This document shows, piece after piece, positions 9,255 to 19,963 of a stretch of DNA of 47,688 nt. The stretch is from Dehalococcoidia bacterium. Lineage in GTDB: Bacteria; Chloroflexota; Dehalococcoidia; DSTF01; JACRBR01. Position 1 is the first letter of the stretch, and every line of letters begins with the position of its first letter. The notes below the pieces were generated by a model. That model had not been told where the DNA came from, made no database searches, and saw only the letters and a list, made by a program, of their open reading frames with translations. A program made the position numbers and the translations under genes. The stretch spans positions 1 through 47,688 of the forward strand of contig JBBDXD010000005.1 of NCBI GenBank assembly GCA_040902535.1. The letters are read 5' to 3'.

Positions 9255-10064
9255 ATGCCCAGAAAAAAGCAGACGGTCCAGCAACAGCGCCGCCGCAGGG
9301 TCTACCGCGAAGGCGAATTCTCCGGCGAGGCCACGAAACTCAAGCCGAAGGGCGCCTTCCGGTTCTTCCAAAACTACACCCTCTTCGCCATCATCGGCAC
9401 CGTCGCGCTCGCCGGAGGGCTGGCGCTCTCCGCCTTCTACACCGGCTCCGGCACGATTCGCAACGACAGCGGCTCCGTGCGTGGCGACGACGTCATCCGG
9501 GAGACGCCCCGCGCCGGCGAAACGTCGACGACTGGCGCCGTAACGGAAATCAAGCAATACACCGGCGCCCCCGCCATGACGATTGACCCGGCGAAAACCT
9601 ACGTCGCCACCGTGAGGACTGACCGCGGCTCGTTCAAGATCGAACTGCTCGCGAGCGATGCGCCCGAGACGGTCAACAACTTCGTCTTCCTGGCAAACGA
9701 CGGCTTCTACGATGGCGTGAGCTTCCATCGCGTCATCGCGGACTTCGTCGCCCAGACAGGCGACCCGACCGGCACCGGATCGGGAGGCCCGGGATACACG
9801 TTGCCCGTCGAAAACGCCGACGGGGCGTTCACCGAAGGCACCGTCGGCATGGCCAGGCCCGCCGATGCGTCATCCCCCAATAACGGCAGCCAGTTCTTCA
9901 TCACGCTCGCCGACACGCCGACGCTCGAAGGCAAGAGCACCGTGTTCGGCCGCGTCGTCGAAGGTCTGGATGTGGTGAGAAATCTGACGGCTCGTGACCC
10001 GCAGCTCGTGCAGGATCCGCCGCCCGGCGATCGCATCGAATCGATCACCATCGAAGAAGCGTAG
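9255..10064 (+). CDS. Membrane-anchored cyclophilin-type peptidyl-prolyl isomerase
   Basis: The 269-residue protein begins with a very basic segment (residues 1-33), one transmembrane helix (about 43-63) and a low-complexity linker. A cyclophilin domain from about residue 110 carries SFHRVIADFVAQTGDP, the GTVGMARPADASSPNNGSQFFIT core, and a TVFGRVVEGLDVV end. It should sit on the outer face of the membrane and catalyse proline isomerisation in exported proteins. TATAGT at 9216-9221 is a likely -10 and GAAGCGAAGG a weak ribosome site. A strong hairpin terminator follows at 10098-10120. Confidence 0.92.
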   Translation: MPRKKQTVQQQRRRRVYREGEFSGEATKLKPKGAFRFFQNYTLFAIIGTVALAGGLALSAFYTGSGTIRNDSGSVRGDDVIRETPRAGETSTTGAVTEIKQYTGAPAMTIDPAKTYVATVRTDRGSFKIELLASDAPETVNNFVFLANDGFYDGVSFHRVIADFVAQTGDPTGTGSGGPGYTLPVENADGAFTEGTVGMARPADASSPNNGSQFFITLADTPTLEGKSTVFGRVVEGLDVVRNLTARDPQLVQDPPPGDRIESITIEEA

Positions 10065-10093: not shown

Positions 10094-10123
10094 AAAAGGC
10101 CGCCGAATCAATCGGCGGCCCTT
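10094..10123. terminator. Bidirectional intrinsic terminator
   Basis: A perfect 9-bp GC stem (GGCCGCCGA at 10098-10106, TCGGCGGCC at 10112-10120) with a 5-nt loop is flanked by AAAA on the left and CTTT on the right. It separates the convergent cyclophilin and zinc-ribbon genes and could end transcription from both sides. Confidence 0.8.
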
Positions 10124-10154: not shown

Positions 10155-10451
10155 TCAGGCCGTTCGCTTCGTCCTTCGACGGACGTATTCAGCGCTGGTC
10201 CGCACCTTGCGGTTCATGCGCTCGACCTCGAACCGGGTCGCGCACCCGTTACAGAGGCGCACCTGGTCGTAGGTCACTGCGCCAGCAGCTTCGCGGCTGA
10301 TGCCGCACCCGGCGCACTTAAACCGGTCGTCCGGTCCGATGCCCCGGTCTCGATCCTCCTCGAGGATCAGTTTCATTGCTTCTTCTATGGCTTCTCTCTG
10401 TTCCTCCGTTACTCCTGCGATCCCGTTTGCGCCGTAGCCGACGACTGCCAA
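10155..10451 (-). CDS. Small zinc-ribbon-like protein under a c-di-AMP riboswitch
   Basis: The 98-residue product has an N-terminal helical part with EEQREAIEEAMKLILEEDRDRG, two Cys pairs (KCAGC and LCNGC, about 21 residues apart) that should hold one zinc, and a basic tail (RMNRKVRTSAEYVRRRTKRTA). The start is placed at TTG 10451 because GGAGG lies 6 nt before it; the frame is open to 10490, but that codon is inside the terminator. There is no signal peptide or membrane segment, so it is cytoplasmic and may bind nucleic acid. It is the only gene downstream of the riboswitch and terminator at 10489-10652. I do not recognise a named family. Confidence 0.65.
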   Translation of the reverse strand: MAVVGYGANGIAGVTEEQREAIEEAMKLILEEDRDRGIGPDDRFKCAGCGISREAAGAVTYDQVRLCNGCATRFEVERMNRKVRTSAEYVRRRTKRTA

Positions 10452-10488
10452 TCCGAACCTCCGGAACTCGTGGCGTCGAAAGGGGAGC

Positions 10489-10518
10489 AAAAAACGACCG
10501 AAGGTAAGCCTTCGATCG
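10489..10518 (-). terminator. Intrinsic terminator of the c-di-AMP riboswitch
   Basis: On the minus strand a 10-bp stem (CGATCGAAGG / CCTTCGGTCG, one T-G wobble) with a CTTA loop is followed by six T residues (10489-10494). It lies between the riboswitch aptamer and the zinc-ribbon gene and is the likely expression platform. Confidence 0.88.
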
Positions 10519-10534
10519 GTTCCCTTCTCCTCTT

Positions 10535-10652
10535 TATGCCTACGGGGTTAGCTGACGGGTTCGGCTCAAAGGAGTTCGCCTACTCGCCTTGCGACGAGAT
10601 TCACCCCGGGAAATTGGTTCCCCCGTTCCGCCTGCGGCGGATTCGGCTGTTA
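10535..10652 (-). promoter_or_regulatory. c-di-AMP riboswitch (ydaO-yuaA)
   Basis: On the minus strand the conserved ydaO-yuaA elements occur in order: GCGGAACGGGGGAACC, then GGGGTGAATC, a variable hairpin (CTCGTCGCAAGGCGAG), GCCGAACCCGTCAGCTAACC and CCGTAGGC. These are the signature bases of the c-di-AMP aptamer, which normally shuts off cell-wall hydrolase or osmolyte/K+ transport genes when c-di-AMP is high. A promoter lies just upstream and an intrinsic terminator just downstream, so the unit is complete. Confidence 0.95.
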
Positions 10653-10667
10653 TTCAGTTGTACATCC

Positions 10668-10696
10668 ACCATACATCCACGCCTATCGAAAATCAA
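10668..10696 (-). promoter_or_regulatory. Promoter of the riboswitch transcript
   Basis: TTGATT (10691-10696) and TATGGT (10668-10673), read on the minus strand, are separated by 17 bp and sit directly before the c-di-AMP aptamer. Confidence 0.65.
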
Positions 10697-19615: not shown

Positions 19616-19963
19616 ATGAATCAACGCGAACGCGCCGACGTCCTCAACGATCCGACGGTCGAAGCGTGCCCGCGCTGCGGCATGCCACGTGACCAATGGC
19701 CCGACGACAGCGCCGGCGGCGCAGCGAAGGACGGCGCCACGTACTGCTGCAAGGGCTGCATGGACGACACCGGCTGTACCTGCAGCGGCAACCGCACCGA
19801 AGACGCCGCGGGCCGCCCGCCGACCGAGGGAGACATACGCTACGACAAGGCCAGCGGCGACTTCCTCAACGAGCACCGCAAAGAGAACAAGACGATCGAG
19901 CCGGATGACTACGCCGACCCGAACGTCGCCAAGACCGCAGGCCCGACGCAAGGCGTCGACTAA
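19616..19963 (+). CDS. Cysteine-rich metal-binding protein
   Basis: The 115-residue product has two parts. Residues 15-60 are Cys-rich: CPRCGM, then YCCKGCMDDTGCTCSG, a layout that recalls bacterial metallothioneins (YCSxxCA...GCxC) and other treble-clef zinc sites. The C-terminal part (about 68-115) is polar and acidic, with EGDIRYDKASGDFLNEHRKE and EPDDYADPNVAKT. GGGAG precedes the ATG by about 9 nt. It is followed by a small gene (20038) that encodes only the second part, so the pair appears to come from duplication. It probably binds zinc, copper or cadmium, but no ligand is proven. Confidence 0.72.
   Translation: MNQRERADVLNDPTVEACPRCGMPRDQWPDDSAGGAAKDGATYCCKGCMDDTGCTCSGNRTEDAAGRPPTEGDIRYDKASGDFLNEHRKENKTIEPDDYADPNVAKTAGPTQGVD

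Follow-up and report, generated by a model that had tools for sequence, protein, structure and literature searches.

The 98-residue Cys4 protein encoded in this Dehalococcoidia genome stands directly behind a leader which, by its class, is predicted to be a c-di-AMP riboswitch. It is fairly probable, at about 60%, that a c-di-AMP-responsive transcriptional OFF switch controls this dedicated small protein, which would most likely serve as an accessory of K+ or osmotic homeostasis. The aptamer, the terminator, the gene, the conserved linkage and a pattern that extends over the whole class were all found by computation and support this reading, and the OFF direction is suggested by the architecture together with the known members of the riboswitch class. 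In what follows the window is the whole stretch of 47,688 nucleotides that was analysed.

On the minus strand of the window, read from 10696 to 10155, a promoter, the aptamer, a terminator, a Shine-Dalgarno site and an open reading frame follow one another in this order. The aptamer (c-di-AMP or ydaO/yuaA riboswitch, RF00379) occupies positions 10658-10522 and was recognized by cmscan at E 1.4e-23 with 103.3 bits, where the gathering score is 38. The match covers model positions 1-134 and hence the full length, and the aptamer helices carry compensatory changes among the relatives. The first-pass annotation, made from the letters alone, had claimed a complete c-di-AMP riboswitch and had proposed a covariance search with RF00379 as the check; the score well above the threshold and the presence of the terminator confirm it. 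The ligand is predicted from the known members of the class. The same genome encodes a diadenylate cyclase (PF02457, E 9.6e-42) and contains six RF00379 riboswitches in total.

The promoter was also said to be visible, and it is formed by a -35-like hexamer TTGATT (10691-10696, minus strand) and, after a spacer of 17 nt, a -10-like hexamer TATGGT (10668-10673, minus strand). This pair is too weak by consensus and fell below the threshold of a strict consensus promoter scan, yet the element is conserved, as all 12 related loci compared have an equally placed TTGAxx and the pair TTGAxx-17/18-(T/A)AxxxT lies 37-45 nt upstream of the aptamer in each of them. The intrinsic terminator (10489-10519, minus strand) adjoins the aptamer and serves as the expression platform. 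It consists of a hairpin at 10518-10495 with a stem of 10 bp, followed by six U, and the hairpin is kept with paired changes in eight leaders. The alignment of these leaders from eight genomes contains 39 pairs, aptamer and terminator included, and 10 of them have changed on both sides.

The gene begins shortly behind this terminator, with a Shine-Dalgarno site GGAGG (10458-10462, minus strand) placed 6 nt upstream of a TTG start at 10451 and a stop at 10155-10157, so that the reading frame takes up 10155-10451 on the minus strand. The U-run ends no more than 37 nt before the start codon, and therefore expression of the gene must pass the terminator. Beyond the stop, a hairpin between convergent genes (10098-10121), likely a terminator, is followed by a convergent gene for a cyclophilin-type peptidyl-prolyl isomerase on the plus strand (9255-10064; PF00160, E 5.8e-39), which is a conserved neighbour. 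Given the short gap and this convergent gene, the 98-residue protein is the sole product that read-through could control, as the first reading of the sequence had stated.

Codon usage alone gives modest support to the 98-codon frame, and comparison with relatives indicates that it is a real gene. Relatives, here called family A, were found in 8 of 60 genomes searched, those from four genomes of the window genome's own family being 48-52% identical and the others more distant. Between the orthologues of one close pair (G006 and G007) pS is 0.099 and pN 0.013, which indicates purifying selection. Among 11 family members Cys46, Cys49, Cys67 and Cys70 are invariant, and about a dozen further residues are invariant or nearly so. 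The codons of the first cysteine pair, C46-x2-C49 (the zinc knuckle), lie at 10305-10316 and those of the second, C67-x2-C70, at 10242-10253, both on the minus strand. No family in Pfam or NCBIfam accounts for the protein.

The linkage of riboswitch and gene is conserved. A search of genome contigs with the single protein returned no relative, and one with an alignment of four sequences returned four named relatives, all from Chloroflexota MAGs and two of them labelled Dehalococcoidia. Among 393 genomes of the class, family A is present in ten, and in nine of these exactly one copy is linked to the riboswitch, with RF00379 directly upstream of the homologue; this is the same linkage that had been proposed as a check on homologues. 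The linked copies belong to five genomes of the same taxonomic family (G001, G004, G006, G007 and the window genome, G000) and to G038, G041, G043 and G071, while no RF00379 was found within 1.5 kb of the extra paralogues of G038, G041 and G071 or of the copy in G024. Signatures of a convergent cyclophilin lie downstream in nine of the 12 related loci, and the arrangement was thus largely inherited, not repeatedly assembled.

The 98-residue target is not a single odd case, for several families of small Cys4 proteins stand under RF00379. A census was made of 139 RF00379 riboswitches from 77 Dehalococcoidia genomes, taken as the best-scoring ones and not as a random draw. In 53 of them, spread over 33 of 54 genera, the gene behind the riboswitch encodes a small Cys4 protein, and these proteins fall into four families. 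Family A accounts for nine of these cases, family B (CPRC...C..CGY...RQRRRQPSHGKLRL) for 21, including one in the window's genome, family C (CPEC...YCPGCHTATPEWRFG, 57-62 aa) for 15 and family D (CPRC..DMWG.YYLC..CGF) for eight. As the gene caller missed several short genes of families B, C and D, the counts come from a pattern rule combined with inspection, and a c-type-haem-like lipoprotein caught by the rule (L083) was left out of them. The same rule applied mechanically gave 52 of 139 c-di-AMP riboswitches against none of 29 Dehalococcoidia TPP riboswitches, 4 of 2069 random positions (0.2%) and 1 of 26 RF00379 riboswitches in other classes of the phylum; the Fisher value of 4.5e-6 is only indicative because the genomes are related. 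When the class was searched for family B genes instead, RF00379 stood immediately upstream of 27 of the best 30. No similarity to A is evident in families B, C and D, and weak Pfam matches give B and D the look of genuine zinc ribbons. The family B protein of the window genome (L006, G000:C3:58972-59432, plus strand) has 68 aa and an invariant C-terminal QRRRQPSHGK, and it is the second riboswitch-controlled Cys4 protein of that genome. Another small cysteine-rich reading frame (CPRCGM...YCCKGCMDDTGCTC) lies in the window at 19616-19960 on the plus strand, and no riboswitch was found near it.

Other targets of RF00379 in these genomes are trehalose-6-phosphate synthase (GT20), TreT, MFS and VTT-domain proteins and a radical-SAM protein that by inspection resembles lysine-2,3-aminomutase. 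Outside the class a protein that combines TrkA_N with TrkA_C (L226) and the c-di-AMP receptor PF06153 are also among them. The receptor is PII-like and was met at two loci of other Chloroflexota classes, by Pfam at L208 (E 1.8e-25) and by resemblance at L211, in what amounts to a feedback arrangement. Two further small proteins were seen downstream of RF00379, a conserved one (GIDDLAKYRIV...; L205, L212, L216 and L107) with the look of a winged-helix regulator and no Pfam family match for the copy tested (L212), and a C2H2-like one of 78 aa (YHCPVCEADF...AAHTIADQHP; L215 and L218).

The first annotation called the 98-residue protein a zinc ribbon, and this appears to be the wrong word. The AlphaFold2 model, whose mean pLDDT is 81 and rises to about 90 in the Cys4 region, places in order a helix at 16-35, the knuckle C46/C49, a beta-hairpin at 59-66 with strands 59-61 and 64-66, and a helix at 68-79 which opens at C67/C70. 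A classical zinc ribbon was rejected on the ground that in this model, which is not a solved structure, the second CxxC lies at the start of a helix instead of in a beta-hairpin knuckle. The protein is thus predicted to be a treble clef, made of a knuckle, a beta-hairpin and a helix bearing the second CxxC, and it presumably binds zinc. It shares the spacing C-x2-C-x17-C-x2-C and the knuckle-hairpin-helix order with treble-clef Cys4 proteins such as GATA, LIM, FYVE and DksA/TraR, but it has no significant sequence match to them and, unlike the coiled coil of DksA, a single N-terminal helix. The small bacterial zinc ribbons of families B and D are likewise Cys4 proteins under RF00379, but their fold class differs and no sequence similarity to the 98-residue protein was seen.

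Searches for a named relative gave little. DksA/TraR (PF01258) was considered and rejected, zf-dskA_traR being absent from the Pfam matches of the protein at E up to 1 and PF01258 without a match genome-wide. The profile similarity to GATA fingers is very weak (GATA-3, E 0.86), the best hit among solved structures searched by sequence was an annexin helix at E 0.2, Foldseek returned nothing with E below 2, and the best VIA-align scores (Z 3.5; Rab effectors, eS26, FYVE) are uninformative.

The clue to the function comes from gene neighbourhoods. In six genomes from outside the class, within Chloroflexota, a family A relative is followed on the same strand by a stand-alone TrkA_N-like protein, in a conserved run (L064-L069) that has a small coiled-coil-like gene between the two where the locus is readable. 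TrkA_N is a regulatory domain of K+ uptake; two of these proteins were tested, and Pfam confirmed the domain in both, at E 2e-26 and 2e-19. Two such loci that were read further out (L264 and L265) have ftsH-like and tilS-like genes adjoining. Regulators of the KtrA/TrkA type (TrkA_N, RCK) are therefore neighbours of family A relatives in another class of the phylum; the Cys4 protein itself lacks the RCK domain and could be at most their partner. Of the targets of c-di-AMP, K+ uptake is the best established (PMC7288161), and with the TrkA_N neighbourhood this ranks a K+ or osmotic accessory above a transcriptional relay; by the neighbours of its relatives the 98-residue protein most likely acts in K+ and osmotic homeostasis, through contacts with protein or nucleic acid. 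Two observations count against the K+ reading: the relatives that adjoin TrkA_N have no riboswitch within the 3 kb examined, and in G041 and G071 the paralogue that lacks a riboswitch stands behind a response regulator of the OmpR type, an arrangement compatible with a role in transcription.

That last arrangement leads to the idea with which the first-pass annotation had set out, namely that the target is regulator-like and that c-di-AMP acts here through a relay, the Cys4 protein binding to DNA or to RNA polymerase and passing the signal on to further genes. The small size, the cytoplasmic location, the conserved acidic helix (AMRL..EED..RG) and the modelled treble clef of the Cys4 protein would suit such a role, as would the faint GATA resemblance and the rare TTG or GTG starts among orthologues of the same family, starts which are frequent in scarce regulators. 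However, the profile searches, Pfam and NCBIfam included, matched the protein to no DNA-binding or RNA-polymerase-binding family, the structural comparison by Foldseek was equally silent, and the TrkA_N genes beside its relatives speak for a partner protein that works in K+ uptake. The relay was accordingly not borne out and is judged rather unlikely, and the accessory of K+ and osmotic homeostasis is the more conservative reading.

It is less likely still that the protein is a metal or redox accessory, a zinc store or a thiol sensor that follows the osmotic state and has no regulatory target. What makes this conceivable is that the four families have different folds and that small size and four cysteines under RF00379 are all that they have in common. 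However, each family that was compared in this respect also conserves parts of its own outside the cysteines (AMRL, EED and RG in A, RQRRRQPSHGKLRL in B, TPEWRFG in C), which argue for specific contacts, and no link to zinc genes was seen.

If the 98-residue protein is taken as the K+ or osmotic accessory, the switch may be pictured after its better known relatives. The leaders of kdpFABC in Bacillus thuringiensis (PMC6488665) and of kimA and ktrAB in B. subtilis (PMC7288161) share with the window the aptamer class, the position in the leader, a host that makes c-di-AMP and an intrinsic terminator as the expression platform; they differ from it in the target, which in known systems is a K+ transporter, an osmolyte gene or a cell-wall gene and here is a small uncharacterised Cys4 protein. 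In the kdp riboswitch of B. thuringiensis c-di-AMP promotes termination, and c-di-AMP drops under K+ limitation (PMC6488665). By analogy, at high c-di-AMP the aptamer would fold, the terminator would form and the RNA would end near 10489. At low c-di-AMP, which in Bacillus means low K+, a segment of the aptamer would hold the 5' arm of the terminator and the polymerase would read through, and the Cys4 protein would then be made alongside other products of the class expected at low c-di-AMP, for example the enzymes of trehalose synthesis. Such a pairing is predicted in folds of the nascent transcript, where aptamer residues 87-97 of the window, and their counterparts in G004 and G006, are bound to the terminator 5' arm. 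The part concerned belongs to ACUCCUUUGAGCCGAACCCG (10556-10575, minus strand). In the remaining five of the eight leaders this pairing is not the predicted fold, which counts against the mechanism, and since it was predicted in only three of eight the segment is left as a candidate antiterminator, whose pairing would be undone when the aptamer folds. The CUCCUUU within the same segment can also face AAAGAGGAG at 10527-10535, a candidate pseudoknot read from the sequence.

Some riboswitches have no gene behind them, which counts against the reading preferred here. Three loci from genomes of the window genome's family (L054 in G002, L040 in G003 and L137 in G005) keep the promoter, a strong aptamer (98.5 bits in G002 and 104.5 bits in G003) and the terminator, and no sense gene follows before the convergent gene. 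In G002 the convergent cyclophilin comes next here too, and the riboswitch sits at the same locus as that of the window. The stems of the orphan copies also vary by paired changes. The gene may have been lost and the switch retained, or the RNA may have a function of its own. A further riboswitch of the window's own genome (L002, G000:C19:81037-81173, minus strand; 92.8 bits) is followed by a doubtful frame of 75 aa and then by a convergent gene. The orphans could mean that the terminated leader is the product, acting alone as a c-di-AMP sponge, a small RNA or an antisense RNA to which the gene is optional. This is quite improbable for the locus studied here, as a conserved and selected gene stands behind most copies and the 17 orphan-looking cases flagged in the census include contig ends and doubtful gene calls. 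That a degenerate riboswitch merely lies beside a spurious reading frame, to which the weak promoter consensus and the modest codon-usage support might point, is refuted by the conservation seen in the covariance score, the linkage, the covariation and the purifying selection.

The riboswitch class is already known, and what is new is a recurring class of small Cys4 targets. In the searchable literature, outside which the main subscription papers lie, the term c-di-AMP riboswitch is never joined with zinc ribbon, nor c-di-AMP with Dehalococcoidia, and within that literature a small Cys4 protein as the target of a c-di-AMP riboswitch appears undescribed. The novelty first proposed for this locus holds to that extent, and its regulator-like nature does not. 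Most of what is understood of c-di-AMP signalling comes from Firmicutes and Actinobacteria, in which the riboswitch acts on transporters, enzymes for osmolytes and hydrolases of the cell wall; in the Dehalococcoidia signalling is, to our knowledge, almost unstudied.

The repeated wiring of RF00379 to four Cys4 families across the class gives a new set of predicted c-di-AMP effectors which can be tested singly, and the linkage to the riboswitch gives protein families without a name their first functional context. The orphan riboswitches are a natural experiment that may show whether such an RNA can be functional when no gene lies downstream of it. As a tentative proposal, c-di-AMP in the Dehalococcoidia may feed a layer of unrelated small Cys4 regulators of transcription or of K+ channels, each under its own riboswitch and extending the signal, and in some lineages the gene may have been lost and the RNA may act alone.
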